Shown piece by piece: positions 14,070 to 47,495 of a stretch of DNA of 49,528 nt. Positions within the stretch are counted from its first letter, which is position 1. Every line of letters starts with the position of its first letter. Under the pieces are notes generated by a model, which did no database searches, was not told the DNA's origin, and worked only from the letters and a program-made list of their open reading frames with translations. The DNA is from Rhodovulum robiginosum (GTDB lineage: Bacteria > Pseudomonadota > Alphaproteobacteria > Rhodobacterales > Rhodobacteraceae): NCBI RefSeq assembly GCF_003944755.1, contig NZ_RWGU01000034.1, positions 1 to 49,528 on the forward strand, read 5' to 3'. Both the position numbers and the translations under genes were made by a program.

Positions 14070-14828
14070 TCAGCCCGCCTGCGGCGGCCAGTCCAGCCCG
14101 GCTGCGCGTTCCAGCGCGGGGTCGATCTGGCTGTCGATAAAGGCCATGTCCGCGTCGGAAATCTCGATCGGGCCGGGGCCCAGCCATGCCTTGCGCTCGT
14201 TCCAGACCCAGCCGAAATGACCCTCGGGCACGGTGAAGCCGGGTTTCCTGCTCAGCCCGAACGTGCCGGCCAGCTCTTCGATCAGCGCCTCGGGGTTCTG
14301 GGTCAGCTCGGCATGGGTGCGAAAGACGACCTTGGCGCCGCGCGTCTTCAGCCCCAGCATGGCGCGCATCTTCATGCCCCTCATTTCCAGGATGTTGGCA
14401 AAGCGCGACCCGTCCAGCGGGTTGCGGTCGTATTGCAGGGGCAGCCCGGCGCGCTTGTCGTCCTCTTCCAGCGCGAACCAGCCGGGCTTGTCGATGGTCG
14501 CGTCCCATTCGGCCCGGATGAAGTCGGAAAACGCCAGCGCGCGCAGCGCCTCGGTACTGTGCCAGGGTTTTTGGTACATGCTTTTCAGCCAGGGCAGCGC
14601 CTCGCGGAACATCACCACGAAAACCACGTCGCGCGGGGCGGCGATGAACAGCGGAAAGCCATGCTTCCAGCCATAGGCCTGGCAGGGGTTGTTGGTGACA
14701 TTGGCGCGGATCAGGTGATGCGCGAAATTGGTGCCCGAGCAGCGTTCGCCCACGACCTGGAACTTCATCGCCGGGTCGTATCGCATCCGGCGCACCGCGC
14801 GGCGCAAGGCGCGCTCAATCCTGCTCAT
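14070..14828 (-). CDS. Sulfotransferase-like P-loop protein (1 of 8 on the plasmid)
   Basis: This 252-residue soluble protein has a P-loop-like PAPS-binding motif near the N-terminus (VVGERCSGTNFAHHL) and a VVFVVMFREALPWLKSMY strand-helix that fits the 3'-phosphate-binding Arg/Ser motif (R...S). A central region rich in aromatic and basic residues follows. The GERCSGTNF form differs from the GxxKxGT loops of its neighbours, so it is a more distant member. The ATG at 14828 has a GAGGACAGG site. It is transcribed alone, convergent with the VirK-like gene (9 nt apart) and divergent from the spike-base gene. A sulfotransferase acting on a saccharide is the best reading; the acceptor is unknown. 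Confidence 0.7.
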   Translation of the reverse strand: MSRIERALRRAVRRMRYDPAMKFQVVGERCSGTNFAHHLIRANVTNNPCQAYGWKHGFPLFIAAPRDVVFVVMFREALPWLKSMYQKPWHSTEALRALAFSDFIRAEWDATIDKPGWFALEEDDKRAGLPLQYDRNPLDGSRFANILEMRGMKMRAMLGLKTRGAKVVFRTHAELTQNPEALIEELAGTFGLSRKPGFTVPEGHFGWVWNERKAWLGPGPIEISDADMAFIDSQIDPALERAAGLDWPPQAG

Positions 14829-15022
14829 TCACCTGTCCTCGCCCGTTTTCCGGCCGCGGGCGGCACCCGCGCGCCCCTTCTCTACTCAACGCCCCACCCC
14901 AAGCCAAGCGTGCCGGGCGGGGGCGTGCGGTGGCTTTGCGCCCCGTTCACCGGCCGGTGCCTAGCCTTGTGCGCATGCCCGGGCCCCGCGCGCGGCCCGG
15001 CCCATCCTGCGGAGACAGCCCG

Positions 15023-15286
15023 ATGCCCCACGACGCCTTCCTCGACTTCCAGCCCGGCCTGCAGAGCCCCGCCCTGCATCTCGAGCCGATCACCCCCAGC
15101 GACACCGCCGATCTGGCCCGGGTGACGCGGGCGCTGAACGTGGCCGGCGCGGGCAGCGTGCGGGTGGTGACCGTGACCGGCCAGACCGGCGACATCCATG
15201 TCGCCGCCGGCATTCCCTTTCCGATCCGGGTGGTGCGGGTGCTGGCCACCGGGACCACGGCGACGGGCATCACCGGCCTGTCCTGA
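15023..15286 (+). CDS. Small protein of the RCAP_Rcc01079 family (GTA/phage head-spike base protein)
   Basis: This 87-residue protein reads LESPALHLEPITPSDTADL-like, then RVTRALNVAGAGSVRVVTVTG and IPFPIRVVRVLATGTTATGITGL. That pattern matches the small spike-base family named after R. capsulatus Rcc01079. In the RcGTA particle, Rcc01079 forms the base of head spikes, and the spikes bind capsular polysaccharide on recipient cells (established for RcGTA). Here it stands alone among EPS genes, with no capsid or tail genes nearby. A GGAGA site precedes the ATG at 15023. It could be a remnant of a prophage or GTA, or a reused trimeric beta adaptor that carries a polysaccharide-binding or -cleaving tip. 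I recognise the family from memory of its pattern and could not run a search. Confidence 0.75.
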   Translation: MPHDAFLDFQPGLQSPALHLEPITPSDTADLARVTRALNVAGAGSVRVVTVTGQTGDIHVAAGIPFPIRVVRVLATGTTATGITGLS

Positions 15287-15394
15287 GCGGCGCCCCGCCC
15301 GCCGGGCGACAGGGTGATCCGGCCGGGATAGGGCCTGATTTCGCGCCGCCCGGGGCTGCGCTGCAAGATCGCGCAGGGGAACCTCCGCGCCGGA

Positions 15395-16789
15395 TCAGAC
15401 CGCCAGGTAAACAAGCGCCGCGGCGGCCACCGCCGCGACGAACCAGGCGGTATCGAACAGGATCTGGCGCGCGCCCAGGACGGGGCGCAGCAGGGCCAGC
15501 GTGTAGGGCGCGGTCAGCAGCTGGTTGAGGCTGGCCGCCAGGATCGCGCCCTCGATCCCCAGCAGATGAAAGCCCAGGGGCACCGTCAGGCAGATCGCGA
15601 CCCCGCGGACCATCGCGATCAGCATGATCGCCCGGGTATTGCCGGTATTCATCACCAGACCGTTCAGGGTCTGGAAGCGCATCACCAGAAAGGCGATGGA
15701 CATCAGCTGCACATACTGCCCGGCGACCGCGTATTGCTCGGTATAGAGAAAGTTCATCATCTGCCGCCCGAGGAAGAAGAAGGCCAGGAAAGCGCCGAGG
15801 CAGAAGAGGTCGATCACGGTCTGGAACTTGCGGTAAAGACGCGGCAGGTCCTGCGGGCGGTCGCGCATGATCTCGCTGACGGCGGGAAAGCCGACATGGT
15901 TGCTGAGCCGGTTGATCAGCTGGCGCCCCGCCATGACCCAGATCTGGGCGATGACATAAAGCCCGAAGGTCCCCGCCCCCAGAAGGCTGCCCAGGATCAG
16001 CTTGTCGGCGTGGTTCGACAGGAAGGAAAAGACCGACGATCCCATCAGGAACTTGCCGAAGGTCCACAGCCGCCGGGCGATCTCGGCGTCCCATTCAAAG
16101 CGCATCCGGGGGCCGGGATAGAAGATGTGCGAGGCGATGAGCACGAACAGGCTTTTCGACAGCATCCCGGCCATCAGCGCCCAGACCGTCGGGCTGAGCT
16201 GGGCAAAGCCGAGCATGCACAACAGCGACAGGGCCTGCGAGGCGATCATCACCAGCGCGTAGCGCCGGTTTTCCAGCCGCCGCAGCGTCAGGTCGCGGCA
16301 GGTCGAGACCCCGCCCAGCATCAGCGGCGACAGCGCCGACAGCGCCGACAGCGCGATCAGACCGGGCAGCCGCGGGTCGGCATAGACGGTGCCGGGCGGC
16401 GCCAGGCCGGGGGCCAGCAGCGCCAGCGCCCCGGCCGCCAGCAGCACGGCGATGGCGATCACCGCGAAGCGCCCCATCTTGACCACCCAGGCCACGCGCA
16501 GGAAATGCGGATCGTCGCCGTCGCGTTCGCGCATGATCGACCGGTCGATGCCGATTTCCGAAAACAGGCTGAAGGCGGTCAGCACCGTGCCGACCATGGC
16601 CATCAGGCCGAAGGCCTCGGGCAGCAGCAGCCGGGTCATGATCAGGTTGCTGACCAGGCGGAAGGTATGGGTCGAGAGGATCTGCACCATGCTCCAGCCG
16701 CCGGCCCGGAACACCCGCCGGCCCAGCGAGTTCCGGCCCGGCATCAGGCCCGCGATCCGGTATTTTGCAAACATCTGCGGCAGCCTCAT
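15395..16789 (-). CDS. Oligosaccharide flippase (Wzx-type, MOP superfamily)
   Basis: This 464-residue protein has about 12 hydrophobic segments and the usual opening for the family: GWSMVQILSTHTFRLVSNLI, then TRLLLPEAFGLMAMVGTV. Charged loops (RRLENRRYALVM, DKLILGSLLGAGTFGLYV) match polysaccharide transporters that flip undecaprenyl-linked repeat units to the periplasm. Its ATG overlaps the stop of the upstream glycosyltransferase by 4 nt (ATGA), so it is the last gene of a coupled glycosyltransferase - sulfotransferase - glycosyltransferase - flippase operon. Together with the polymerase at 23302-24822 and the Wzz-like protein it defines a Wzx/Wzy pathway. The 108 bp downstream show no clear terminator. 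Confidence 0.92.
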   Translation of the reverse strand: MRLPQMFAKYRIAGLMPGRNSLGRRVFRAGGWSMVQILSTHTFRLVSNLIMTRLLLPEAFGLMAMVGTVLTAFSLFSEIGIDRSIMRERDGDDPHFLRVAWVVKMGRFAVIAIAVLLAAGALALLAPGLAPPGTVYADPRLPGLIALSALSALSPLMLGGVSTCRDLTLRRLENRRYALVMIASQALSLLCMLGFAQLSPTVWALMAGMLSKSLFVLIASHIFYPGPRMRFEWDAEIARRLWTFGKFLMGSSVFSFLSNHADKLILGSLLGAGTFGLYVIAQIWVMAGRQLINRLSNHVGFPAVSEIMRDRPQDLPRLYRKFQTVIDLFCLGAFLAFFFLGRQMMNFLYTEQYAVAGQYVQLMSIAFLVMRFQTLNGLVMNTGNTRAIMLIAMVRGVAICLTVPLGFHLLGIEGAILAASLNQLLTAPYTLALLRPVLGARQILFDTAWFVAAVAAAALVYLAV

Positions 16790-17763
16790 TTGTATTCGAT
16801 CAGGCGGGCGGGGCGCCCGAGCCCGCGGCGCCAGTGATACTCGGCGATCCCCTGGGCCTCTGCAAATTTAGACAGCGTGACCAGCGCGGCCCATTGCCAG
16901 TCGGCGCGGCGGCCGCCCGCGCGCAGCGCCAGCCGGACGACCTGGGCGGGATAGAGCGCCAGCAGCGCCAGCGCCCCGGGGCCGGCCAGCAACGCCAGCG
17001 CCAGGATACCGGCCGGCAGCGCCGCCCCCCAGGCCAGCGCCCGGCGCATCCCGGCCACGCCGTGGCGTTCGGGCGGCCGCCCGTGCAGCGCCGCGCCCTC
17101 GGCCCAGGCGTGGCCGGCGCGGCGGGCGCGGTTCCAGAACTGCCCCAGCCGGGTCATCGCCGCGTCGTGCAGGGTCATTTCCGCGTCCAGCCGCCAGATC
17201 TGCCAGCCCTGCGCGCGCAGCCGCACGCACAGCTCCGGCTCTTCGCCGGCGATCAGCCGCGGATCGAACCCCCCGACCGCGTCGAGCGCCGTCCGGCGCA
17301 TCAGCGCATCGCCGCCGCAGGCCTTGGTCTGGCCCACGGGCGTGTCCCATTCCCGGTCGCACAGGCGGTTGTAGACCGACGCGTCGGGAAAGCGTTCGCG
17401 CCGCCGCCCGCAGGCCACGGCCGCCTGCGGATGGGCCTGCAGAAAGGAAAGCGCGGTGTCGATCCAGCCCGGCTGCAGCTCGCAATCGCCGTCGATGAAC
17501 TGCACGAAATCGGGCGGGTCGCCGGCGCCCAGGCGTGCCAGCCCCGCATTGCGCGCCCGCGCCGCGGTAAAGGGGGCGGCCAGGTCGAGCTCGACCACCT
17601 CGGCGCCGGCCGCCCGCGCCGCGGCGACCGAGCCGTCGGTGGAGCCGGAATCGACATAGACGATGCGCCCCACCTGCCCGCAGAGCGCCTCCAGGCCGCG
17701 CAGCAGCCGGGCGCCTTCGTTGCGGCCGATCACGACGGCTGCGATGGCGGGCCGCGCGCTCAT
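16786..17763 (-). CDS. Glycosyltransferase family 2
   Basis: This 325-residue enzyme has a GT-A fold N-terminus: AAVVIGRNEG, IVYVDSGSTDGS for nucleotide-sugar binding, and the metal-binding QFIDGDCEL. A GEEPELCVRLRAQGW acceptor-side motif follows. Near the C-terminus are two hydrophobic segments (ALAWGAALPAGILALALLAG and GALALLALYPAQVV) that should anchor it to the inner membrane. ATG 17763 overlaps the upstream sulfotransferase stop by 4 nt (ATGA), a better choice than the GTG 12 nt upstream. It adds one sugar of the repeat unit; donor and linkage cannot be told from sequence. Confidence 0.9.
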   Translation of the reverse strand: MSARPAIAAVVIGRNEGARLLRGLEALCGQVGRIVYVDSGSTDGSVAAARAAGAEVVELDLAAPFTAARARNAGLARLGAGDPPDFVQFIDGDCELQPGWIDTALSFLQAHPQAAVACGRRRERFPDASVYNRLCDREWDTPVGQTKACGGDALMRRTALDAVGGFDPRLIAGEEPELCVRLRAQGWQIWRLDAEMTLHDAAMTRLGQFWNRARRAGHAWAEGAALHGRPPERHGVAGMRRALAWGAALPAGILALALLAGPGALALLALYPAQVVRLALRAGGRRADWQWAALVTLSKFAEAQGIAEYHWRRGLGRPARLIEYK

Positions 17764-18602
17764 GGCTGGAGGCACGTGTAGCAGTCGGCCAGGTCGGGCC
17801 GGCCGGGAAACAGCGCCATCAGCCGGTCGCGGTCCTCGGCGAAGACGGCCTTCGCCCGGGCCAGATCCCGGGCCGGGATCTCGGGGCGGGTCTGCATCTG
17901 CCGGGCCGCCTTGACCCGGTCGCGCAGGGCCTGGGGCACCATTGTCCGGCGCAGCGCGGTGGCTAGCGGATTGTCGACGAGAAGCCCGTGCAGCGGCAAG
18001 CGCCGGATGCGCTCGGCCGAGGCGTTCACGCGGCCCAGATCGGCCTGCCAGACCAGCCCGGGGCGGTCCAGGAAGGCGCCGACCCGATCCAGGAAGCGCT
18101 GGGGGTTACGCTGCATCTCGTTCAGCGTGCCGACAAAGACCCTGTCACGCCCGAACCGTGCGATCCAGGGCGCGATCTGCATGCCGTAGCAGCCATAGGA
18201 AACCAGCTCGGGATGGTGCGTCAGCGCCGGGCCGATCTCGTCGGCGATCTCGCCCATGCTCCAGCCGTGGATGTAATGCGACACGGCACGCGCCACCGGG
18301 TCGCGGATCAGGTAGATCAGCTTTGGCGCCTCGAGCATGGCGGCGAGCCGCGCCAGCGTGTCGGGATGGGTGGGCAGCTTGGTGTAATGGGTGCTGGCCT
18401 CGCCTTTCAGGTCGCCGGGCGCGGCGGCGTCGAACAGCGCCTCGTACCAGCCCGGGCCGCGGGCAAAGACCGCGTCGTCGGAAAAGAAATTCGGCTCTTT
18501 CGGGGTGGTCATGAACATCCCCGGCTGCGCCTCCAGCTGGGCCGCCAGCGTGCTGGTGCCGCATTTCATCGCGCCGATGATCAGGTAATCGGGCAACGCC
18601 AT
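17760..18602 (-). CDS. Sulfotransferase (PAPS-dependent, Sulfotransfer_1-like; 2 of 8)
   Basis: This 280-residue protein opens LPDYLIIGAMKCGTSTLAAQ, a clear 5'-phosphosulfate loop. It continues TPKEPNFFSDD and GEASTHYTKLPTHP, then LIYLIRDPVARAVSHYIHGW, the 3'-phosphate-binding Arg/Ser motif. This is the pattern of heparan-sulfate-like and bacterial saccharide sulfotransferases. It is 4 nt after the upstream glycosyltransferase, with an AAGGGAG ribosome site, and 4-nt overlapped with the downstream one, so it is embedded in a repeat-unit assembly operon. That placement makes sulfation of the lipid-linked oligosaccharide likely. It is closest in pattern to the product of 41756-42607. Confidence 0.9.
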   Translation of the reverse strand: MALPDYLIIGAMKCGTSTLAAQLEAQPGMFMTTPKEPNFFSDDAVFARGPGWYEALFDAAAPGDLKGEASTHYTKLPTHPDTLARLAAMLEAPKLIYLIRDPVARAVSHYIHGWSMGEIADEIGPALTHHPELVSYGCYGMQIAPWIARFGRDRVFVGTLNEMQRNPQRFLDRVGAFLDRPGLVWQADLGRVNASAERIRRLPLHGLLVDNPLATALRRTMVPQALRDRVKAARQMQTRPEIPARDLARAKAVFAEDRDRLMALFPGRPDLADCYTCLQP

Positions 18603-18606
18603 CGCC

Positions 18607-19599
18607 TCAGCTCCCTTCCGGTGCGCGCCGGTCGCCCAGCGGGTGGCGGACGTTGATCCAGATGTCGCGCGCCTCGGCCTCCACGGCGCGCGGCCGCGGC
18701 TTGCCGGCCAGCACCCGCAGCTGCGCCAGGGCGCGGCCGAAGTGCCAGGCAAGGTTGGCCGCGACCGGCCCCGCCGGCCCGTGGGCCTGGCGCAGGAAGC
18801 GGCTGCGCGAAGCGTAGAAATAGGGCGGCAGGCGCCGGCGCGCCTTGGCCAGGCTCTTGACCGGGGCGCTGCCGCCGCGGAAATGCACCGCGCGCGCCTC
18901 GGGCACATAGCGGATCGACCAGCCCGCGCGCCGCGCCCGCAGGCAGTATTCGGCATCCTCGAAATAAAGGAAGTACCCCTCGTCCATCGGGCCGATCGCG
19001 GCCACCATCTCGGCGCGCAACAGGATGCAGGCAAAGCTGGCCCAGCCGATCCGGTCGGCGGCGGGGGGCATGTCGAGCGGCACGTCGTAGCGCGCCAGCA
19101 GCCTGGTCACCGGGCCGGTGCAGGCGCCGCGGATCAACTCGCTCATCGGGCAGGGAAAGCGGAAGCAGCTGATCTGCCCGGTGCCGTCCTCGTCTTCCAG
19201 CCGGGGCGCGAAAAGCCCGGCCGCGGGTGCCGCGTCCGCCGCGGCCAGGATCGCGGCGAAGAAGCCCGGGCGCAGCACCGCGTCGGAATTCAGCACCAGG
19301 TAGAAGCGCGCCGCCCGCGCCGCGATGCCCTGGTTGTGCCCGCCCGAAAACCCCGAATTGGTGGGCGAGCGCACCAGCGTGACCGGCAGATCGGGCCCCT
19401 GCCCCGCGATCCAATCGGCGATGACCGCATCCGACCCGTCGCCCGAGGCGTTGTCGACCACGACCACATGGGCCGCAAGCCCCGGGGTGCGGGCGATGTC
19501 GGCCAGCACCGAGGCCACGCAGTCCAGCGTCAGCCGCGCGGTGCGGTAATTGATGATCGACACAACCAGGTCGAGCGTATTTCGGGATGACTCGGTCAC
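18607..19599 (-). CDS. Glycosyltransferase family 2, WbbL/rhamnosyltransferase-like
   Basis: This 330-residue GT-A enzyme has LVVSIINYRTARLTLDCVAS, VVVDNASGDGSD, SPTNSGFSGGHNQGI and the DxD-equivalent LVLNSDAVL. The acceptor-side GPMDEGYFLYFEDAEYCLRA follows. This arrangement is typical of WbbL-like rhamnosyltransferases, but donor specificity is not provable here and no rhamnose-synthesis genes are present. The GTG at 19599 is chosen because a GGAGG site lies 5 nt before it; upstream codons fall in a non-coding divergent region. It is the first gene of the operon leading to the flippase. Confidence 0.9.
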   Translation of the reverse strand: MTESSRNTLDLVVSIINYRTARLTLDCVASVLADIARTPGLAAHVVVVDNASGDGSDAVIADWIAGQGPDLPVTLVRSPTNSGFSGGHNQGIAARAARFYLVLNSDAVLRPGFFAAILAAADAAPAAGLFAPRLEDEDGTGQISCFRFPCPMSELIRGACTGPVTRLLARYDVPLDMPPAADRIGWASFACILLRAEMVAAIGPMDEGYFLYFEDAEYCLRARRAGWSIRYVPEARAVHFRGGSAPVKSLAKARRRLPPYFYASRSRFLRQAHGPAGPVAANLAWHFGRALAQLRVLAGKPRPRAVEAEARDIWINVRHPLGDRRAPEGS

Positions 19600-19939
19600 G
19601 GCACCTCCGTCCGGCGGTCGCCCGCTTCGGCCGCTTCGCCCACTTCGGCCGGTGCGGCCGGCCGCGCCGCATGGGCCCGGAACGGGGCGGCGGTGCCGCA
19701 ATTGACGATGATGACCGAAATTTCGGCCGCTGGCAGCCCTGCAGCTTTGTCCATGAATCCGGTTGACCGAGGCAATCTGTTGGGTCGGGCTTAGCACAGC
19801 TGTTGGGCCTTCGGCAGTCCATTCTGGGACGATATTCCGGCAGCCGGAGCGCCCCCGCCGCGCGCCCCGCGCCTGCCCGATTGCGGCACCGCGGCGCTGT
19901 GCTAAGGTGCCCCCGACGCCACGGATTTCAGCCCCTCCC
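19600..19939. promoter_or_regulatory. 340-bp divergent promoter region between two glycosyltransferase operons
   Basis: There is no gene here. An 11-bp motif GCTGTGCTAAG occurs twice as a widely spaced inverted pair: minus strand 19790-19800 and plus strand 19896-19906, one pointing at each flanking operon. The plus copy forms an extended -10-like TGCTAAGGT with a TTGCGG about 16 bp upstream (19881-19886). This suggests similar promoter cores for both directions. A short C/T-rich imperfect repeat (CTTCGGCCG) lies near 19630-19655. Confidence 0.5.
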
Positions 19940-20668
19940 ATGCCCCACCACGCCCTGCTGTCGCGGACCGACGCCGTCTATGTGATCAACCTGCCCGAGC
20001 GCGGGGATCGCCGGGACGAGATGGCGGCCGAGCTGGCGCGGGTGGGCCTGTCGCTCGACGCCCCCCCCGTGGTGCTGTTTCCCGCGGTGCGGCCCGAGGC
20101 CCCGGACGGCTTTCCCTCGATCGGCGCGCGGGGCTGTTTTCTCAGCCACCTGGGCATTTTGCGCGACGCGCTGCAGCGCGGGCTGGCGCGGATCGTCATC
20201 CTCGAGGACGACGCCGATTTCACCGACGCCTTCGTGGCGATGGGCGCGGACCGGGCAGAGGCGATAGACCGCGCCGGGTGGGACATCGTCTATTTCGGCT
20301 ACGAGGCGCGCAAGCCGATCGCCGGGGTCGGCGCGCCGGGCGACGATTTCGTCCCTGTTCCGGCCGAAACCGGGCTGGGCACGACCCATGCGATGATGCT
20401 GCGCCAGAGCGCGATCGCCCGGCTGGTGCCCTATCTCGAGGCCATGCTGGCCCGCCCGCCCGGCGACCCCGACGGCGGCCCGATGCATGTGGACGGCGCC
20501 TATAGCTGGTTTCGCCGGCAGGCGCCGGAGCTGCGCACCCTGGCCGCGCGCGAGCAGCTGATCGTGCAGCGGTCGTCACGGACCGATATCGGAGAGCGGA
20601 AATGGCAGGACAGGCTTCCCTTCGCGGCGCGGCTGCGCAAACTGCGCAACCGGCTGCGCCCCCATTGA
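19940..20668 (+). CDS. Glycosyltransferase family 25 (LPS/LOS-type)
   Basis: This 242-residue protein has the family-25 opening AVYVINLPERGDRRDEM, then GARGCFLSHLGILRDAL, the catalytic-core ARIVILEDDADFTDAF and WDIVYFGYEAR, and a late GGPMHVDGAYSWF. GT25 enzymes transfer hexoses, often galactose, to surface glycans. Starts further upstream would run through the promoter region, so the ATG at 19940 is used. It is 50 nt upstream of two coupled sulfotransferase genes, with which it may form a three-gene operon. That would link sugar addition and sulfation. Confidence 0.9.
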   Translation: MPHHALLSRTDAVYVINLPERGDRRDEMAAELARVGLSLDAPPVVLFPAVRPEAPDGFPSIGARGCFLSHLGILRDALQRGLARIVILEDDADFTDAFVAMGADRAEAIDRAGWDIVYFGYEARKPIAGVGAPGDDFVPVPAETGLGTTHAMMLRQSAIARLVPYLEAMLARPPGDPDGGPMHVDGAYSWFRRQAPELRTLAAREQLIVQRSSRTDIGERKWQDRLPFAARLRKLRNRLRPH

Positions 20669-20718: not shown

Positions 20719-21498
20719 GTGCGCATACATCATGAAATCGCCTTTCGGGCGCTGCGGCCCGTCCTGCCCGGGGCCGGCCGGCGGCCGCGGACGATCTTCG
20801 TCATCGGCTGCATGCGGTCGGGGTCGTCGATGCTGAGCCATGTGCTGATCGCCAATGACGGCATCGCGGGCTATGGCGAATCCCACGTCCACTACACCGA
20901 CCCGCGCAGCATTTCCGAACTCGGCTACTGGATCTTCCGCTTTGGCGGGCGGCTGCCCCGGCGCGACATCTACATGCTCGACAAGGTGCTGCACCGTTCG
21001 CACATGCCGCATCCCGAGCGGGTGGTGCCCTGGTGCGACCCGAAATTCGTCTTCATGCTGCGCCGGCCCGAGGGCAACATCGTCTCTCTGGCCCGGCTGT
21101 TCTATGACGGCGCCCCGCCCGACGAGGCGAAACTGGCCCATGCCGCGGATTACTACATCAACCGCCTGGGCGAGATCTGCGCGTTCATCGGCGCGCTGCC
21201 GGCCGGCCTGCCCTGCCTGACGGTGCGCTACGACAGCCTCGTCGCCCATCCACAAGAGGATCTCGGGCGGCTAACCGCCTTTCTGGGCCTCCGCCAGCCG
21301 CTGAGCGAACAGTACCGCCTCACCTCGACCACCGGCAAATGGGGGGTCGGCGACGGGTCGGAGAATATCAGGTCCGGCCGGATCCTGCGCCGCGAGGCGG
21401 CCGCGCAAGACGCCCCGGACATTCCCCGGCTCGACGAGGCGCGCGCCGCCCATGACCGGGTCACGGCCCTTTTGCAGGCGCGTGGGGGGCGGCCATGA
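20719..21498 (+). CDS. Sulfotransferase (3 of 8)
   Basis: This 259-residue protein has the P-loop TIFVIGCMRSGSSMLSHVL (GCMRSGSS, 5'-phosphosulfate loop). KFVFMLRRPEGNIVSLARLF serves as the 3'-phosphate motif (R...S), and LTVRYDSLVAHPQEDLGRL is a common late sulfotransferase motif. The start is GTG with GGAGAGAC just upstream. The gene overlaps the next sulfotransferase gene by 4 nt (ATGA). The acceptor is presumed to be the EPS repeat unit because it sits between a GT25 gene and the polymerase/glycosyltransferase operon. Confidence 0.88.
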   Translation: MRIHHEIAFRALRPVLPGAGRRPRTIFVIGCMRSGSSMLSHVLIANDGIAGYGESHVHYTDPRSISELGYWIFRFGGRLPRRDIYMLDKVLHRSHMPHPERVVPWCDPKFVFMLRRPEGNIVSLARLFYDGAPPDEAKLAHAADYYINRLGEICAFIGALPAGLPCLTVRYDSLVAHPQEDLGRLTAFLGLRQPLSEQYRLTSTTGKWGVGDGSENIRSGRILRREAAAQDAPDIPRLDEARAAHDRVTALLQARGGRP

Positions 21499-22262
21499 CC
21501 GGCCCCGAGACCGGCCCCGGACCCCAGGGGCGCAGGATGCTCTTCGTGGTCGGCCTGCACCGAAGCGGGACCACGCTCTTGTCGAAACTGCTGGCGCGGC
21601 ACAGCCAGGTTTCGGGGCTGCAGGACACCGGCGCCCCGATGGACGAGGGGCAATACCTGCAAGACGTGATCCCGAGGATCGGCGGCGTCGGCGCGCTGGC
21701 GTTCAGGAAAGGGTTTCACCGTACCGAGGCATCGCCCCTGGCCACCCCCGAGGCGGCGCGGCAGCTGTGGCAGGCCTGGGCGCCGCACTGGAACCTGGAA
21801 AAACCCGTCCTGCTGGAAAAATCCCCGCCCTACATCACGGCCACGCGCCTGCTGCAATACTATTTCCCCGACGCGGCCTTCGTCTTGATCACACGACATC
21901 CCTTCGCCCAGGCGATGGCGATTTCGAAATGGTCGGCCAACCGGCCGGCCTTCCAGTTCGTGACGAACTGGCTGATCTGCCACGAGGTCTTCGCCGCCGA
22001 TTCCCGCCATTTGAAACAGAGCATGACGATCCGCTACGAGGATTTCTGCGCCGCCCCCGAAGACGGGCTGCGGCGGATCTGCGCCTTTGCCGGCCTGCCG
22101 CCCGAGGATCTGCTGGACCGGGAGATCCGGTCGAGCAATGCAAAGTATTTCGCGCAATGGAACGATCCCGCGCGCTTGCGGCTGGGGCGCGCGCAGACGG
22201 CGGCGATCCGGCTGGCCTATGGCCGGCGGCTGGCGCGCTGGGGCTATGACACCCGGGTCTGA
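21495..22262 (+). CDS. Sulfotransferase (4 of 8)
   Basis: This 255-residue protein has LFVVGLHRSGTTLLSKLLARH, a canonical GLHRSGTT PAPS loop. VLLEKSPPYITATRLLQYYFP, AAFVLITRHPFAQAMAISKW (3'-phosphate motif) and MTIRYEDFCAAPEDGLRRIC follow. The start codon overlaps the previous sulfotransferase stop (ATGA), so the two are translationally coupled, suggesting two sulfation positions on the same polymer. Its 3' end overlaps the convergent glycosyltransferase gene by 19 nt. Confidence 0.9.
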   Translation: MTGPETGPGPQGRRMLFVVGLHRSGTTLLSKLLARHSQVSGLQDTGAPMDEGQYLQDVIPRIGGVGALAFRKGFHRTEASPLATPEAARQLWQAWAPHWNLEKPVLLEKSPPYITATRLLQYYFPDAAFVLITRHPFAQAMAISKWSANRPAFQFVTNWLICHEVFAADSRHLKQSMTIRYEDFCAAPEDGLRRICAFAGLPPEDLLDREIRSSNAKYFAQWNDPARLRLGRAQTAAIRLAYGRRLARWGYDTRV

Positions 22263-27957: not shown

Positions 27958-28075
27958 GGAAACGGGGGGGATTCCTCGGGGTGGAAAGGCGGTCGCGAGC
28001 GGCCGGGGGCCTTGGGTGATTTCTATACGCCCCTGCCCGGCATCGCACGGATTTTCGGCCTCTCCCGCCAGGGCG

Positions 28076-28105
28076 TTGACAAAACCATGGATGCGGCGCG
28101 ACTAT
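28076..28105 (+). promoter_or_regulatory. Candidate sigma-70-type promoter for the WecG/TagA-family gene
   Basis: A perfect -35 TTGACA lies at 28076-28081, followed after 18 bp by a weak -10, GACTAT (28100-28105). It points to the WecG-like gene starting at 28196, leaving a leader of about 85 nt. The good -35 and its position in a 238-bp divergent intergenic space support it; the -10 is poor. Confidence 0.5.
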
Positions 28106-28195
28106 CCCGGCGGCCCGTCCGGGCCACCCCGGACCTGGGCGACATCAGCGCCACAGCACCATCCAAGAGCCGACACAAGCGAGCGGAGCGATGCT

Positions 28196-37758: not shown

Positions 37759-37766
37759 GAGGCGCC

Positions 37767-39158: not shown

Positions 39159-39227
39159 GCGTCGCGGCGGCGTTTTCCGGAGATGCGGAGAAAAAAAGTT
39201 TTATTTTCAATGCCTTAAATGCCGCGC

Positions 39228-39243: not shown

Positions 39244-39275
39244 AGGGCGGGACAAGACCGGAGGGGGAGGGGCCC

Positions 39276-40322
39276 ATGGCCAAGCGTAAGAGACTGACCC
39301 CGGCGCGCAACCTTGCCACCGCGCCCTCGCCCGAGCCCGCCGCCGACGCGGCGGCGCGGCCGATCCTGCCGGGGGCCGGGCGGGGCGCTGCGCCCATCGC
39401 CCGCGTCGCCGGCGAAAGCGCCAGCGAGGCGGCGCTGCGCGACCTGGCCGAGGATGTGCGCCGCGCCCGCGACGAGGGGCGCATGGTGCAGGCGCTGCCG
39501 CTCGAGGCGGTCGACGCGGGCTATCTGGTGCGCGACCGGATCCTGGCCGACGATGCCGAGCTGGAGGTGCTGATCGACAGCCTCCGCGACCGCGGCCAGC
39601 AGACCCCGATCGAGGTGGTCGACCTGGGCGCGGGGCGGTTCGGGCTGATCTCGGGCTGGCGGCGGCTGACGGCGCTGCGCCGCCTGGCCGCGGAGGATGC
39701 CGCGCGCTTCGGCACGGTCAAGGCGCTGCTGCGCCGCCCCGAGACCGCCGCCGAGGCCTACCGTGCCATGGTCGAGGAAAACGAGATCCGGGTCGGGCTG
39801 AGCTATTACGAGCGCGCCCGGATCGTCGCCCGCGCGGCGGGGCAGGGGGTCTACCCCGATGTCCAGGCGGCGCTCTCTGGGCTCTTCGCCGCGGCCAGCC
39901 GGGCGAAACGGTCCAAGATCGGCAGCTTTCTGAAAATCCACGACGCGCTCGACGACCGGCTGCGCTTTGCCGCGGCGATCCCCGAACGGCTGGGGCTTGC
40001 GCTGTCGCGCGCGCTCGAGGCGGATGCCGAGTTGGCGCCGCGGCTGCGCGAACGCCTGCGCAAGGGCGCGCCGGCCGATGCCGCCGCCGAGCTGGCGCTT
40101 CTGGAGCGGGCGCTGACGGGGCAGGGCAGGGGGGCGGCGGCCAAGGCGCCGGGGCAGGGCAGGGCGGCCCCGTCCGCGGACGGCAGGCCCGTCGAGGGCC
40201 CCGGCGGTATCCGGATGCAGGCCGCACCGGGGCGCATCACCCTGACCGGAGAGGGCGTCACGGAGGCGTTCAGGGCCGATCTTGCGGCCTGGCTGGCCGG
40301 GCGGGGCGGCGGTGCGGCGTGA
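39276..40322 (+). CDS. parB: Plasmid partition protein ParB
   Basis: This 348-residue protein has the ParB/RepB N-terminal nuclease-like domain (LEAVDAGYLVRDRILADD, IDSLRDRGQQTPIEVVDL, FGLISGWRRLTALRRL). The box-III-type motif MVEENEIRVGLSYYERARIV and a central HTH-containing region (KRSKIGSFLKIHDALDDRLR) follow. An Ala/Gly/Pro-rich linker leads to a C-terminal dimerisation segment. A strong GGAGGGGGAGG site precedes ATG 39276. It should load on the parS-like site 33 bp upstream and cooperate with ParA. Confidence 0.93.
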   Translation: MAKRKRLTPARNLATAPSPEPAADAAARPILPGAGRGAAPIARVAGESASEAALRDLAEDVRRARDEGRMVQALPLEAVDAGYLVRDRILADDAELEVLIDSLRDRGQQTPIEVVDLGAGRFGLISGWRRLTALRRLAAEDAARFGTVKALLRRPETAAEAYRAMVEENEIRVGLSYYERARIVARAAGQGVYPDVQAALSGLFAAASRAKRSKIGSFLKIHDALDDRLRFAAAIPERLGLALSRALEADAELAPRLRERLRKGAPADAAAELALLERALTGQGRGAAAKAPGQGRAAPSADGRPVEGPGGIRMQAAPGRITLTGEGVTEAFRADLAAWLAGRGGGAA

Positions 40323-40405
40323 CGGCCGGCCCGGAGGACTGGACAGGACCGGAGGCCGTTGCCGCCATTGCGCCAAAGCCGGCAGACCGGGAAGGCGATG
40401 AGGCC

Positions 40406-41611
40406 ATGACCGACCAGTCCCCCGCAGTGGCGCCGGCGATCCGCGGCCGCAGGTTGCTGATTTTCCAGAATGGCGATTACGGCGCTGCCTTCCGGCGGCT
40501 GCGCGACGGCGGCGAAGAGACCTACCGCGACCAGCGCCGGTCGGTCGAGTTCGTCGCCCGCCTGTCGCACGAGATGCCGGTGGTTGTCGTGGCGATGTGC
40601 GACCGGCCGCACCGCGAAGAGCTGGCGCCGGGGCTGACATCGATCGGCATTCCGCCCGGGGCGGGCCACGACCCGGCGAAGATCCTGCCGCTGCTCGACG
40701 AGATCGCCCCCGAGGTGCTGATCTGCCGCTCGCCGAACCGGTTCGTGCTGGGCTGGGCGCGGCGCCGCGGCCTGCCGGTGCTGCCGGTCTTTGCCGATAT
40801 CTTTGCCAATGACGGCCTGCGGCAGGCCTGGCGAAACCTGCGGCTGCGCGCCCAGCTGGGCGGGGCAGGGACGGTCTGCGTGGCCAATCACAGCCTCAAC
40901 GCCTCGCGGTCGGTGGGGCGTGCGCTGCTCTACCCGGCCGGGCGGATCGTGCCCTGGGACTGGTCGCGCCTGCCCACCGAGCCCGATCCCAAATCCGCGC
41001 CCGACGGGCCCTGGCGGGCCTTCTTCGCCGGGGCGATATCGGATGCCAAGGGCGTCGGCGACTGCCTGGAGGCCGTGGCCCTGCTGAAGGCGCGCGGGCT
41101 CTGGCTGGGTTTCGACCTGGCGGGGGGGCGCGACCTGGCCCCCTGGCAGGCCCGGGCCGCGCGGCTGGGCATCGACGACCGGGTGCGCTTTCTGGGCATG
41201 CTGCCCCATGCCGAGGTACGCGCGCGGATGCGGGCGGCCGACCTGGTCGTCGTGCCCTCGCGCCACGATTACGCCGAGGGTCTGCCGAACACGATCTACG
41301 AGGCGCTGGCCTCGCGCTCGCCGCTGGTGATCTCGGATCATCCGGCCTTTGCCGGGCGCCTGCGCGACGGCGCCGATTGCCTGGTGTTTCGCGCCGCGTC
41401 CCCCGATGCGCTCGCCGATCGCGTCGCGCACCTGATGCAGTCGCCCGATCTCTACCGGGCGCTGTCGGAACAGTCCGCCGCCGCCCATGAAAGGCTCTAT
41501 ATCGGCCTGGAATGGCTCGATCTCGTGTCGACCTTCCTGCGCGATCCGGGCAACGAAACCGGCTGGGTCGCACGGAACGCGCTGGCGCGCCTGACCGGCC
41601 GGGGGCGGTGA
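40406..41611 (+). CDS. Glycosyltransferase family 4/1
   Basis: This 401-residue GT-B enzyme has RRLLIFQNGDYGAAFRRLRDG and LICRSPNRFVLGWARRRGLP. RAFFAGAISDAKGVGDCLEA (donor-domain start), LGIDDRVRFLGMLPHAEVRARM and the EX7E-type segment PSRHDYAEGLPNTIYEALAS follow. ATG 40406 with GATGAGG ahead is preferred; a GTG overlapping the parB stop (40319) would add 29 residues without family features. It is the first gene of a plus-strand group (glycosyltransferase, sulfotransferase, acyltransferase) downstream of parB. Confidence 0.9.
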   Translation: MTDQSPAVAPAIRGRRLLIFQNGDYGAAFRRLRDGGEETYRDQRRSVEFVARLSHEMPVVVVAMCDRPHREELAPGLTSIGIPPGAGHDPAKILPLLDEIAPEVLICRSPNRFVLGWARRRGLPVLPVFADIFANDGLRQAWRNLRLRAQLGGAGTVCVANHSLNASRSVGRALLYPAGRIVPWDWSRLPTEPDPKSAPDGPWRAFFAGAISDAKGVGDCLEAVALLKARGLWLGFDLAGGRDLAPWQARAARLGIDDRVRFLGMLPHAEVRARMRAADLVVVPSRHDYAEGLPNTIYEALASRSPLVISDHPAFAGRLRDGADCLVFRAASPDALADRVAHLMQSPDLYRALSEQSAAAHERLYIGLEWLDLVSTFLRDPGNETGWVARNALARLTGRGR

Positions 41612-41755: not shown

Positions 41756-42607
41756 ATGAGCGCGGGCGCGGATCCCGCGAAGCCCGATTTCGTGGTGCTC
41801 GGCGCGATGAAATGCGCCACCTCGACGGTTTGCAAGTATCTCGAGGAGCATCCGGAGGTCTACATGGCGCCGCGCTGCGAGCCCAACTATTTCAGCGATG
41901 ACGCGAATTACGCCAAGGGGCCGGAGTGGTATGCCCGGTTTTTCGCGCCGCGGCAGGGCGAGGCGATCTGCGGCGAGGGCTCGAACGACTATGCCGCCGG
42001 GGCGATGTACCCGCATTCGGCCGAACGGATGGCGCGCGATTTGCCCGAGGCCAGGCTGATCTTCATGGTGCGCCACCCGCTGCGGCGCATCGTGTCGGCC
42101 TGGGTGCAGAACCGGGTGGACATGGGCGATGCGGTGCCACCCACGCTGGAGGCGGCGGTGCGCGAGATGCCCGCGCGCTTCGTCGACCAGAGCCTTTACT
42201 GGAAAAACCTCTCGCGCTACCGCGCGCTTTATCCCGACGCGCAGATCTTCATCGGCTTCATGGAGGATCTCTCGCGCGATAGCGACGCGTTTTTCGGCCG
42301 GCTTTGTGCCTTTCTTGGGGTGGAACCGTACAGCGTCGACGCAGGTTTGCATGTCAATCCGAGCGCGGGCAAACGCGTGCCCGCGGGGCTTTATACCCGG
42401 CTGAACAGCGCCGGCCCGGTGCGTCTGGCCAAGCAGGTGCTGCCCAAGGGGGTGACCCGGGCGGTCAAGGATCGCCTGCTCAGCCGGCCGGCCGCGGAGA
42501 TGCGGCTGCCGCCCGAGATCGAGGCCGAACTGGCCGAAGAGCTGCGCCCGGATGCACAGGCGCTGCTGGCCCATTGCGGCAAACCCGGAGATTTCTGGGC
42601 GCTCTGA
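41756..42607 (+). CDS. Sulfotransferase (7 of 8)
   Basis: This 283-residue protein has FVVLGAMKCATSTVCKYLEEH (PAPS loop), CEPNYFSDDANYAKGPEWYAR and CGEGSNDYAAGAMYPHSAERM. ARLIFMVRHPLRRIVSAWVQN is the 3'-phosphate motif. The order and wording of motifs parallel the protein of 17760-18602 (GAMKCGTST, EPNFFSDDAVFARGPGWYE), so the two are close relatives placed in different operons. It is 144 nt downstream of the GT4 gene. A saccharide acceptor is probable. Confidence 0.9.
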   Translation: MSAGADPAKPDFVVLGAMKCATSTVCKYLEEHPEVYMAPRCEPNYFSDDANYAKGPEWYARFFAPRQGEAICGEGSNDYAAGAMYPHSAERMARDLPEARLIFMVRHPLRRIVSAWVQNRVDMGDAVPPTLEAAVREMPARFVDQSLYWKNLSRYRALYPDAQIFIGFMEDLSRDSDAFFGRLCAFLGVEPYSVDAGLHVNPSAGKRVPAGLYTRLNSAGPVRLAKQVLPKGVTRAVKDRLLSRPAAEMRLPPEIEAELAEELRPDAQALLAHCGKPGDFWAL

Positions 42608-42684: not shown

Positions 42685-43740
42685 TTGAGCGGGTTAAAGC
42701 CCCCCCCGACGGAGCGCCGGCGTGACGATATCGACACGATCCGCGCCATCGCCTGTATTGCGCTGGTCTTTTATCACGTAGTCGGCAGCGGGCCCGCGAA
42801 GGGGCTGGAGGTTCCGGCGGAGCATTGGCTGCACACGATCAACGACAGTTTCTCCAACGTCAGGATGCCGCTTTTCAGTTTCCTGTCAGGGTTCGTGTTC
42901 GTGCCGGCCGCGCCGGCGGTCGCGGATATGCGCAAACGCATCCTGTCCAAGGCGCGGCGGCTGTTGGTCCCGATGGTTTGCGTCGGTTCGCTGTTCTGGC
43001 TGATCCGCGCAGCGGCGGGCATCGAGCAGGGGCCGTTCCTGCGGATCTTCTTTCAGCCTTACGCGCATTTCTGGTTTCTGCAGGCCACCTTTCTGATCAT
43101 GACGGTTTTCACCCTGGGGGTATGGCTGGGTGGCGGCCGGGTGCGGGCGGCGGCCTGGGTGCTGCTGGGTGGCGGCGCGGTCTGGTGGTGGGGCCTGCCG
43201 CTGGTGCCGGGTAACTGGTTTTCGATCAACAACGCGCTGTTCCTGATGGCCTTTTTCATGGCCGGCCATCTGCTTGCGCGCGGTGACGGCGGGCGCGGGG
43301 CAGGGGCGCGCATGCTGGGGGCCGCGGCGGTCGCCGCAGCGGTGCTGCTGGGCGCGGCGCTGGCGCTCGGCGTCGTCGAGACCGGGGGAGAGCTGCGGCG
43401 CGGCCTGGCCCTGGGGATCGGGATGATGTCCTGCCTGGGGCTGTATTTCCTGCGCCCGCGGCAGGCGCTGCTGGCCCGGCTGGGCCGGCAGTCCTATGCG
43501 ATCTACCTGTTCCATGTCTTCTTTACCGCCGGAACGGTTAGCGCGCTCAAGGCGATCTGGCCCGATATCGACCCTGTTGCGGCGCTTTTGCCGGTTTTTT
43601 GCGCAGGGCTGTTCGGTCCGATCCTGGCGCAGAAGGCGCTGCAGGAGACCCGCTACGGCGGGTTTTTGTTCCTGGGTCTGCGGCTGCGACCGGGCCGGCC
43701 CGCCGTCGCCCCCGCGCTGGGGCAGGGCAGCGTACGCTAG
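42685..43740 (+). CDS. Acyltransferase 3 family membrane protein (EPS O-acetyl/acyl modification)
   Basis: This 351-residue protein has about 10 membrane spans. The N-terminus reads DIDTIRAIACIALVFYHVVG, with the conserved Arg20 and His31 of acyltransferase-3 enzymes. MPLFSFLSGFVF and the later LARLGRQSYAIYLFHVFF complete the family pattern. It should transfer acetyl or succinyl groups from the cytoplasm to periplasmic polysaccharide. The start is TTG 42685 with a GAGGA site 8 nt upstream. It is preceded by its own promoter-like sequence and followed after 64 nt by an SGNH hydrolase gene; an acylation and possible deacylation pair is attractive but unproven. Confidence 0.9.
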   Translation: MSGLKPPPTERRRDDIDTIRAIACIALVFYHVVGSGPAKGLEVPAEHWLHTINDSFSNVRMPLFSFLSGFVFVPAAPAVADMRKRILSKARRLLVPMVCVGSLFWLIRAAAGIEQGPFLRIFFQPYAHFWFLQATFLIMTVFTLGVWLGGGRVRAAAWVLLGGGAVWWWGLPLVPGNWFSINNALFLMAFFMAGHLLARGDGGRGAGARMLGAAAVAAAVLLGAALALGVVETGGELRRGLALGIGMMSCLGLYFLRPRQALLARLGRQSYAIYLFHVFFTAGTVSALKAIWPDIDPVAALLPVFCAGLFGPILAQKALQETRYGGFLFLGLRLRPGRPAVAPALGQGSVR

Positions 43741-46634: not shown

Positions 46635-46762
46635 TGTCCTATTCCCTCTGTTCAAATCATTTTTCCCCTTACCCCCTCAGGAGCGCGGGACATCTGCGCG
46701 CAAGGCGCGGTCCGGTCCCGCGTCGGCCGTGCCTGACCTAACGGCAGACATGGCCTGATGGC

Positions 46763-46791
46763 ATTATGTCTCACAGGGTCCCGGTTGTCAG
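46763..46791 (-). promoter_or_regulatory. Sigma-70-type promoter for the VPLPA-CTERM metallopeptidase
   Basis: On the minus strand, CTGACA (46786-46791) and CATAAT (46763-46768) each match consensus at 5 of 6 positions with 17-bp spacing. It is one of the strongest promoter matches in the window. Transcription would start near 46756, giving a leader of about 120 nt before ATG 46634. Confidence 0.7.
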
Positions 46792-46871
46792 CAATTCTGC
46801 CACTATGCGCGCGCGACAGCGCCTTTGATGCGCGGGACAGACCTGCGCCGGGGCGGGGTCTCGGGGCCGGT

Positions 46872-47495
46872 TCAGGCCCCCGGGTCGTAGCCCAGCACCC
46901 GGAAATCCTCGGCATAGCGCCAGCGGATGATCCAGCGATGCAGCCGGGAGAGGCCCTTGCGGGCCAGGTCCGGCCGCTTGTCCGAGACGTTGCGCGCGGG
47001 CAGCGCGCGCCGCTGGCCGAGTGCGCGCTCGAACACCTCGGGCATTTCCTCGGCCAGACGTTCGAATCGGATCACCCGGTCGACCAGCAGCCGCCCCTGC
47101 CCGTCATGCAGAAACCGCACCTGCGGCACGCGGTGGCGGACAGGGTCTTTCCAGTCGTCGCGCCAGGGCTTGAGCAGGAACCACCACAGCGGCGTGCGCC
47201 GGGGGTTGCGGTAGCGGTATTCCGACAGCAGCCGGTCATAGGGGTTCCGCACGATCGCGAACTTGAAATAGCTGTCGAACTCGGCCTGGGTGACATGCCC
47301 GCAGGCGACGTATTCGCGGGCATAGAGATGGGCCAGCCGCGTCGGGCCCTGGCTGCGGTCGTCGTTGCGGCGCAGCAAAAGCGGCGCGCGGCTGTCCCAG
47401 TCGAGCCCGCACTCCTGCAGGAAGACATGCTCCACGCTCTGGCCGGCGGCCTTCGGGATGTGGACGAAGATCGTCTTGTGCTTCCTGGAAATCAT
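46872..47495 (-). CDS. Sulfotransferase family 2 protein (Sulfotransfer_2-like; 8 of 8)
   Basis: This 207-residue protein has KHKTIFVHIPKAAGQSVEHVF, the HIPKAAG PAPS loop of carbohydrate sulfotransferase family 2 (chondroitin/HNK-type). FKFAIVRNPYDRLLSEYRYR (3'-phosphate motif), VRFLHDGQGRLLVDRVIRFE and a C-terminal YAEDFRVLGYDP follow. This is a different subfamily from the other seven, with different loop wording. ATG 47495 is chosen because the family motif begins a few residues later; an in-frame TTG at 47552 would add 19 residues. It lies between the metallopeptidase unit and the type I secretion operon. Confidence 0.9.
   Translation of the reverse strand: MISRKHKTIFVHIPKAAGQSVEHVFLQECGLDWDSRAPLLLRRNDDRSQGPTRLAHLYAREYVACGHVTQAEFDSYFKFAIVRNPYDRLLSEYRYRNPRRTPLWWFLLKPWRDDWKDPVRHRVPQVRFLHDGQGRLLVDRVIRFERLAEEMPEVFERALGQRRALPARNVSDKRPDLARKGLSRLHRWIIRWRYAEDFRVLGYDPGA

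Follow-up and report, generated by a model that had tools for sequence, protein, structure and literature searches.

Heavily sulfated polymers are better known from seaweeds and animals. Sulfated polysaccharides of bacteria with sulfotransferase (ST) genes have also been published, as in the case of synechan and the products of Vibrio KMM 8419, Cobetia and Pontiella; those parts of the reports that state a number give between one and three STs for a cluster (PMC8205485, PMC11641403, PMC7356697). In the relevant passages of the synechan paper of 2021, its authors note abundant STs in the cyanobacterium Trichodesmium and describe STs as, to their knowledge, unreported in other bacterial exopolysaccharide (EPS) clusters (PMC8205485). 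The Synechocystis xss cluster for synechan, a sulfated EPS, resembles the locus investigated here, a 49,528-bp contig of Rhodovulum robiginosum that we refer to as the window, in being plasmid-borne and in combining a Wzx/Wzy pathway with glycosyltransferase (GT) and ST genes. It differs in its cyanobacterial origin and, as far as the cluster is described in these passages, in pairing eight GTs with two STs, whereas the window contains eight GTs above the Pfam cut-off and eight STs; also, the word exosortase is absent from the main text of that paper, while the window encodes the exosortase XrtD (PMC8205485).

Two other bacterial systems share the presence of STs in a polysaccharide cluster. 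In Vibrio sp. KMM 8419 the sulfated product is proven but, in the portion of the report covering the cluster, the capsule depends on an ABC transporter, three STs (one assigned to the O-antigen) are found in 80 genes and PAPS genes are part of the cluster (PMC11641403). In Pontiella sulfatireligans, a member of a different phylum, a sulfated product was detected, and the account of its glycosaminoglycan (GAG)-like exopolymer mentions three genes for putative GAG STs, of which one belongs to the GT-rich cluster (PMC7356697). Hence, the expectation of the earlier note that such dense sulfation would be rare in bacterial EPS holds in degree, with eight STs against one to three, but not in kind.

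Closer counterparts are found on plasmids of Rhodobacterales. Plasmid unnamed6 of Jannaschia sp. W003 (NZ_CP083545.1, 63 kb) is, like the window, an EPS plasmid with XrtD, and both share a GT2a-ST2-GT2b module, Wzy and WecG. The genome scan assigns six STs to it, and one further ST is annotated as Stf0. It is larger, and a protein comparison covering 50 of its 63 kb revealed counterparts of only ST2 (61%) and ST7 (34%) among the STs. The Roseobacter plasmids pTB2, pRLO149_63 and pROLI127 also combine XrtD with polysaccharide genes and a RepA of about 78% identity but, unlike the window, they carry annotated PAPS synthase and sugar-nucleotide genes of their own and only one or two STs each at the Pfam level.

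The plasmid and its exopolysaccharide pathway

The window comprises the entire contig and, with an ABC ORF running continuously over its ends, very probably closes on itself as a circular molecule. It contains an RPA-type initiator next to partition genes (Table 1), as found in RepA-type replicons, with a weak model match for ParB; RepA, ParA and ParB also adjoin one another on the Jannaschia and Roseobacter plasmids. The assignment as one 49.5-kb plasmid is thus borne out. A paper by Michael from 2016 is said to define the Roseobacter biofilm plasmid with a rhamnose operon. We rejected this label for the window, as no member of the rhamnose (rfb/rml) family was detected among the 40 window proteins scanned.

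Table 1. Coordinates of plasmid features (positions in the window).
Feature	Position	Strand	Remarks
Poly_export/SLBB outer-membrane export protein	5194..6096	-	
PrsT-like TPR protein	5945..8398	-	below NCBIfam cut-off
Priming sugar transferase	8524..9342	-	PF02397
XrtA-type ATPase	9795..10649	+	below NCBIfam cut-off
Wzz/XrtA-type chain-length determinant	10649..12193	+	PF02706 and TIGR03007 matches, below both cut-offs
Tyrosine autokinase-like	12222..13049	+	below NCBIfam cut-off
ST1, putative divergent ST-superfamily protein	14070..14828	-	GERCSGTN loop, R75/S83
Wzx-type flippase	15395..16789	-	
GT2a, GT family 2	16786..17775	-	59-67% identity at 15 of 101 XrtD loci
ST2	17760..18602	-	Sulfotransfer_1/3; nearest solved 3rnl and heparan sulfate 3-O-sulfotransferase; flanked by two GT2 genes; start corrected (424-aa frame begins within neighbouring GT2)
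GT2b, GT family 2	18607..19605	-	start approximate
GT25 family GT	19940..20668	+	start approximate
ST3	20719..21498	+	Sulfotransfer_3; GT25 upstream
ST4	21495..22262	+	Sulfotransfer_3 (99 bits); 4-bp overlap with ST3
Possible GT	22244..23305	-	weak, E 0.019
Wzy-type polymerase	23302..24822	-	Wzy_C
GT4	~25817..27109	-	start approximate; replaces ORF 26022-26909 (wrong frame)
GT2	27115..27957	-	
WecG/TagA/CpsF GT	27911..28978	+	true start probably later
XrtD	32196..33794	-	VPLPA-CTERM exosortase fused to EpsI domain; TIGR04152 664.4 bits, cut-off 400
ST5	34097..35035	-	Sulfotransfer_3 type (PF13469); divergent to adjoining ST6
ST6	35349..36284	+	Sulfotransfer_1 type (PF00685, 24.4 vs cut-off 22); 31% to ST5; inside larger frame 34974-36284
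RepA replication initiator	36275..37303	-	RPA, PF10134 336 bits
ParA	37755-39158	+	above cut-off
ParB-like	39219-40322	+	weak model match only
GT4	40319..41611	+	upstream of ST7
ST7	41756..42607	+	Sulfotransfer_1/3; nearest solved 3rnl (E 1.7e-22) and heparan sulfate 3-O-STs; GT4 before, acyltransferase after
Acyltransferase family 3	42685..43740	+	
Candidate sorting-signal protein	45699-46655		VPVPPA near end, hydrophobic stretch, Arg run (by eye); no sorting-signal model match
ST8	46872..47495	-	Sulfotransfer_2 (PF03567, 58 bits)

All components expected of a Wzx/Wzy cluster are encoded, namely a priming transferase, GTs, flippase, polymerase, a polysaccharide co-polymerase (PCP), whose matches remain below the cut-offs, and an outer-membrane exporter (OPX). 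PAPS synthesis genes, proposed as a cluster hallmark in the pertinent passage of the Vibrio report (PMC11641403), were not detected on the plasmid; APS kinase gave a single match in the genome scan, a 589-aa frame on another contig (C11).

We read the molecule, with a probability of about three in four, as a Rhodobacterales plasmid of the RepA type that mainly carries a single XrtD-class (VPLPA-CTERM) Wzx/Wzy EPS pathway dedicated to a sulfated heteropolysaccharide, with cytosolic STs acting on the lipid-linked repeat unit prior to export. In such a pathway, the priming transferase and about seven other GTs would assemble this unit at the cytosolic face, where the soluble STs would sulfate specific sugars with PAPS supplied by an ATP-sulfurylase/APS-kinase whose gene lies outside the plasmid. 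Wzx would then flip the sulfated unit for polymerization by Wzy, while control and export of the polymer would fall to proteins of the Wzz-like, OPX and TPR types. We infer three of its features, the EPS as acceptor, sulfation before flipping and the modification of several positions.

Families and residues of the sulfotransferases

All eight ST frames are present, at or near the positions given in the earlier note, and intact. Seven of the encoded proteins exceed a Pfam ST cut-off, with two models each for ST2, ST4 and ST7 and a single one for ST3, ST5, ST6 and ST8, whereas ST1 was placed only through its relatives, profile comparison and a structural model. The eight fall into about five sequence groups, ST2 and ST7 (31-32% identity), ST5 and ST6 (31%), ST3 and ST4 (weak, 20%) and the single members ST8 and ST1. 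The claim of eight ST-like proteins from at least three subfamilies is thus sustained, with ST1 as distant member. Glycan-modifying heparan sulfate 3-O-STs are among the nearest solved relatives of ST2 and ST7, which we counted for the sulfation of an EPS. The nearest ones of ST4 are, weakly, CurM and tyrosylprotein STs, and ST8 has no match in the PDB at E<=1. None of the eight STs contains a hydrophobic window of membrane strength, and they are predicted to be soluble and cytosolic.

PAPS-dependent STs bind the cofactor with a 5' loop and an R-x7-S pair contacting its 3'-phosphate. This pair, whose residues are the sole invariant columns across 41 ST candidates of families other than that of ST1, is kept at the expected place in seven of the eight proteins, the exception being ST4, where an alignment to 4gbm shows Ala replacing Ser. 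Some STs may therefore be redundant or inactive. An extended version of this view, which we consider a serious possibility though not the expected outcome, holds that only few of the eight contribute, with others being redundant, differently regulated or decaying, and that the repeat unit carries one or two sulfates as in synechan. Besides the altered residue in ST4, it finds support in the wide variation of ST number among relatives and in Synechocystis, where, in the mutant analysis as presented, one of two ST mutants (xssE) caused no substantial change in bloom formation or EPS accumulation (PMC8205485). It is opposed by the intact frames and by the fact that no two STs exceed 32% identity over long alignments, and thus are not recent copies.

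ST1 lacks any direct sequence match in Pfam, NCBIfam or the PDB; a PDB search with its 23-sequence profile returned nothing useful, and a scan of genome contigs with its sequence alone revealed no relative. A five-row family alignment used as query identified 51 loci. The underlying alignments contained 22 of 29 fetched relatives (A1, leaving out truncated or stop-containing sequences) and 37 of the 51 loci (A5, leaving out L070, L109 and 12 Chlamydiae-type bins). In an alignment of 38 members, 13 match Sulfotransfer_3 (PF13469) at E<=1 (best 3e-5) and eight Sulfotransfer_1 (best 6e-5), while comparison by hhalign relates the family to the ST2/7 alignment with an E of 1.5e-5 at a probability of only 80% and to that of ST5/6 with 4e-4 at only 35%. 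In a Foldseek search with the AF2 model (pLDDT 92), the top eight matches are all PAPS STs, with E values of at least 0.035, none at E<=0.001, and TM-scores of 0.32-0.42. Collectively, relatives, profiles and model suggest that ST1 is a distant member of the ST superfamily. The low similarity would also fit a P-loop protein devoid of ST activity, a verdict that might extend to others of the eight, but we regard this as quite improbable since the family preserves a GER-SGTN loop and the R-x7-S spacing and since some relatives match Pfam STs.

Sulfotransferases near XrtD and the putative product

A single whole-genome Pfam scan with three ST families, applied to the plasmid and the remaining genome alike, found six STs on the former and seven on the latter, thus placing 6 of 13 within 1.33% of the DNA (63-fold density, binomial 9e-9); as it overlooks ST1 and ST6, the latter found by protein scan, it may have missed others elsewhere too. 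We dropped the idea that the window is richest in STs by count, since two other XrtD contigs, Jannaschia unnamed6 and G050:C15, equal its six in the same scan.

Around XrtD genes we found 39 STs in 23 of 80 loci (of 111 places outside the window, chiefly the highest-scoring ones rather than a random choice, and including relatives of the same genus), compared to 2 in 2 of 49 control stretches (Fisher 4e-4), which were ordinary genome regions at fixed coordinates and not matched EPS loci (60 attempted, 11 contigs too short). The 25 genomes scanned for STs were a chosen set, consisting of all 23 in which an ST occurs close to XrtD and two of the window's genus, and their ST counts differ widely. 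No ST is located within about 9 kb in 57 of the 80 loci nor, by three Pfam families, on 7 of 21 XrtD plasmid records (those of 24 with >=80% cover, omitting H4, H5 and H17 as near relatives of included ones). Sulfation is consequently no constant component of XrtD systems, and we rejected the proposition that these are always sulfated. With the patterns applied, viral contigs yielded no XrtD.

Four of the eight STs (ST2, ST3, ST4 and ST7) are embedded in or coupled to GT genes, as the earlier note had observed for several. The connection is tightest in ST2, which is separated from GT2b by 4 bases and shares 16 with GT2a. The GT2a-ST2-GT2b arrangement is also present at the XrtD loci L011, L012, L013 and L191 (two being closely related Rhodovulum plasmids), with ST2 at 57-61% identity, and these are four of the five other loci having GT2a and a close GT2b; the 101 XrtD loci compared include duplicates, with at least L128/L021 and L175/L018 being the same molecules. 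ST1, ST5, ST6 and ST8 reside outside GT operons, as would be expected if some or most STs were merely co-carried and acted on other acceptors such as lipids, LPS, secreted or sorted proteins or small molecules. The weak relationship of ST4 to CurM and tyrosylprotein STs and the O-antigen assignment of one Vibrio ST, in the part of the report concerned (PMC11641403), point in the same direction. We consider this unlikely, as most genes identified on the plasmid serve EPS production, secretion or replication, GT genes adjoin ST2, ST3/4 and ST7, and the surroundings of XrtD EPS loci are enriched in STs.

A sulfated EPS as product is well supported by context, comprising the complete Wzx/Wzy pathway with its eight GTs, the GT-ST-GT synteny, the soluble STs and the PAPS synthase that three XrtD plasmids of Roseobacter carry. 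As it pairs a complete slime pathway with eight enzymes of a sulfate-attaching kind, the plasmid probably makes a heavily sulfated slime. The proposal of a polysaccharide sulfated at many positions, initially drawn from ST density, is thus supported in part, by gene context for the sulfated EPS, whereas the many positions are suggested by eight divergent STs.

As a tentative extension, which we regard as less likely than not, Rhodobacterales XrtD plasmids might add exchangeable ST cassettes to a pathway for the glycan backbone that they have partly in common, with each ST travelling together with the GT responsible for its acceptor sugar. As STs are gained and lost, strain-specific sulfation would then arise within a single family of glycosaminoglycan-like polymers from bacteria, with the present plasmid, among the most heavily equipped found, perhaps targeting at least five different positions.

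We thus describe an alphaproteobacterial plasmid with eight STs, in an order where multi-ST loci recur near XrtD. If its polymer is polysulfated, chemistry resembling that of glycosaminoglycans would be available from a compact bacterial source, together with position-specific STs for polysaccharides that could be characterized. A connection between EPS systems of the exosortase type and the sulfated matrices of marine biofilms would then also be open to testing.

The replicon and its sulfotransferase density

Contig C9, the 49,528 bp of which make up the entire window (assembly of 3.71 Mb in 51 contigs), encodes ParA, a weakly ParB-like protein and an initiator of RPA type (PF10134 match) that is 70–81% identical to the 40 best listed plasmid initiators, from Phaeobacter, Roseobacter, Rhodovulum, Leisingera and other Rhodobacterales. 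An ABC-transporter frame starting at 47680 crosses the contig end and runs for 686 codons without interruption to a stop ending at 212, 3 bases ahead of an HlyD-type gene. Since this frame is continuous across the contig ends, C9 is very probably a closed circle and, in combination with the initiator and ParA, the designation as plasmid in an earlier note is borne out. The type I secretion set spans the contig ends, and an RTX-repeat protein of 999 aa encoded away from it may be its substrate.

Features of the plasmid
Feature	Position	Strand
ST1	14070–14828	-
ST2	17760–18602	-
ST3	20719–21498	+
ST4	21495–22262	+
ST5	34097–35035	-
ST6	35349–36284	+
ST7	41756–42607	+
ST8	46872–47495	-
GT2a	16786–17775	-
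GT2b	18607–19605	-
XrtD, VPLPA-CTERM exosortase	32196–33794	-
Type I secretion set (ABC, HlyD, OEP/TolC)	47680–49528 + 1–212, 216–3114	
RTX-repeat protein	29024–32023	
Rhomboid protease	3092–4045	
DUF535 protein	13071–14060	
DUF6492 protein	24865–25875	
Weakly metalloprotease-like protein	45699–46655	

A single whole-genome scan with three Pfam sulfotransferase (ST) families, applied alike to the plasmid and the remaining genome, recovered six of the eight plasmid STs (ST2, ST3, ST4, ST5, ST7, ST8) and seven STs elsewhere, placing 6/13 within 1.33% of the DNA (63-fold; binomial 9e-9). Because the scan misses ST6, which is seen at the protein level, and ST1, the counts elsewhere may be too low.

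Families and predicted PAPS-binding residues

Seven of the eight proteins that had been described as PAPS-loop STs were recovered above Pfam cut-offs, ST2, ST4 and ST7 by two ST models each and ST3, ST5, ST6 and ST8 by one, whereas ST1 is probably a distant member. The sole NCBIfam matches among the eight are weak ones of ST3 and ST4 to NoeE. Pairwise identities group ST2 with ST7 (31–32%), ST5 with ST6 (31%) and ST3 with ST4 (20%), with ST8 and ST1 each standing alone, in agreement with the proposed minimum of three subfamilies. The nearest solved structures of ST2 and ST7 are the bacterial sulfotransferase 3rnl and heparan sulfate 3-O-sulfotransferases; ST4 weakly matches CurM and tyrosylprotein sulfotransferases, ST5 and ST6 weakly match 3rnl, and among solved structures ST3 has no significant match and ST8 none. 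Seven of the STs have, where expected, the R-x7-S spacing, which we take to mark the 3'-phosphate pair of PAPS sulfotransferases; the exception is ST4, whose alignment to 4gbm shows alanine in place of the serine. Across 41 ST candidates from other loci, this arginine and serine constitute the only invariant columns. All six Pfam families matched by these candidates are sulfotransferase families (PF13469 in 28/41, PF00685 in 22/41).

ST1 has no direct match in Pfam, NCBIfam or PDB sequence searches. Its family is present in 69 of 390 Rhodobacterales genomes, including its own, and 23 aligned sequences share, among others, invariant G27, E28, R29, T33, N34, R75 and S83; in a wider alignment of 38, R75 is still invariant and S83 almost so. 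Of these 38 members, 13 match Sulfotransfer_3 (best 3e-5) and 8 Sulfotransfer_1 (best 6e-5) at E≤1, along with weak matches to a few unrelated models. In hhalign comparisons, the family aligns to ST2/7 with an E-value of 1.5e-5 (probability 80%), to ST5/6 with 4e-4 (35%) and to ST4 alone with a probability of 6%. An AlphaFold2 model (mean pLDDT 92) retrieves PAPS sulfotransferases as Foldseek PDB matches 1–8 and as 21 of the first 25, with a best E-value of 0.035 and TM-scores of 0.32–0.42. Profiles and predicted fold together provide good but not decisive support for ST1 as a distant member of the sulfotransferase superfamily. The family is widespread in Rhodobacterales, Planctomycetota, Verrucomicrobia and others (loci L061–L111), and in the 20 plasmid matches listed, all from Phaeobacter, its members are annotated as hypothetical.

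Sulfotransferases at other XrtD loci

A scan of 390 genomes detected XrtD in 110. We retrieved 80 XrtD neighbourhoods, each at most 20 kb long; 23 of these loci contain 39 ST genes, compared to 2 genes in 49 control stretches from the same genomes (25.2 vs 2.1 per Mb; Fisher test on loci 4e-4), which together make up the 41 candidates described above. The other 57 neighbourhoods hold no ST within about 9 kb on either side. On 21 XrtD plasmid records scanned in full, PF13469 and PF00685 exceed cut-off on 12 each and PF03567 on 6, with at least one ST on 14. Scans of 25 chosen genomes showed further XrtD contigs with several STs: six (G050:C15, 59 kb), five (G386:C13, 55 kb; G218:C3, inside 17 kb; G083:C39, inside 18 kb) and, in the genus of the window, four (G312:C19). 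Like for like, the six STs of the window are equalled by G050:C15 and by plasmid unnamed6 of Jannaschia W003, which carries an additional annotated Stf0 protein, and the density on the window, 0.121 per kb, is the highest of the three (0.101 and 0.095, respectively).

Among described systems, the synechan cluster contains 2 STs and 8 glycosyltransferases (GTs); its authors knew of no STs in other bacterial EPS clusters, and the same paper reports them in many cyanobacterial ones, abundantly in Trichodesmium (PMC8205485). Pontiella is described with three putative GAG STs, one within a cluster (PMC7356697), a Vibrio KMM 8419 polysaccharide cluster with three among 80 genes (PMC11641403), and Cobetia as another bacterial case (PMC11766843). 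The R. litoralis genome paper ascribes importance in cell envelope biosynthesis to pRLO149_63 and pTB2, its main text not containing the word 'sulfotransferase' (PMC3141670). In the open-access literature searched, we found no description of multi-ST XrtD plasmids.

EPS pathway and predicted sulfation

The plasmid encodes a priming transferase, Wzx, Wzy, a chain-length protein, a kinase, an ATPase, an OPX export protein, a PrsT-like TPR protein, an acyltransferase and XrtD (664 bits, cut-off 400). Beyond the priming transferase, seven GTs exceed Pfam cut-offs (three GT2, two GT4, GT25 and WecG), and one further candidate matches weakly. DUF535 and DUF6492 proteins sit within the EPS region. 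A rhomboid protease adjoining the EPS export genes possibly belongs to the XrtD/EPS system, since relatives occur in 25 of 101 XrtD loci, some of them duplicated. The weakly metalloprotease-like protein, whose VPVPPA-hydrophobic-Arg tail was recognized by eye, is a possible XrtD substrate; it has no relative in the 101 loci at the threshold used.

The coupling of STs to GT genes, claimed for several, holds for four: ST2 begins 4 bases past GT2b and shares 16 bases with GT2a, and ST3, ST4 and ST7 lie in the co-directional runs GT25-ST3-ST4 and GT4-ST7-acyltransferase, whereas the other four are located outside GT operons. Order and spacing of GT2a, ST2 and GT2b are kept in Jannaschia W003 (L011), two related Rhodovulum plasmids (L012, L013) and a locus of the window's genus (L191), with identities of 57–61% for ST2 and 63–67% for the GTs. 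No remaining GT2a locus has an ST2 relative above 34%; a close GT2b is also present at two more loci, L177, which has both GTs (56–60%) with nothing of ST type between them, and L018, which has GT2b (58%) without GT2a and an ST2 relative of only 30%. This pattern of co-occurrence suggests that ST2 might modify the sugar added by GT2b.

The Vibrio KMM 8419 paper regards the joint presence of PAPS and ST genes within a polysaccharide cluster as a hallmark of sulfated polysaccharide synthesis (PMC11641403). The only APS kinase match in the genome lies in a frame of 589 residues on contig C11, and the plasmid has none; three Roseobacter XrtD plasmids (L010, L017, L021) carry their own annotated bifunctional sulfate adenylyltransferase/APS kinase, a plasmid-borne PAPS supply. 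None of the eight STs contains a hydrophobic window of membrane strength, which is present in Wzx, Wzy, XrtD and the priming transferase. Because the STs are soluble and PAPS is cytosolic, sulfation would take place in the cytosol, before the repeat unit is flipped; the close packing of ST and GT genes fits the growing lipid-linked unit as its target. With the anatomy and relatedness of STs and EPS genes established here, we predict from sequence the EPS as acceptor, a sulfated product and sulfation at several positions.
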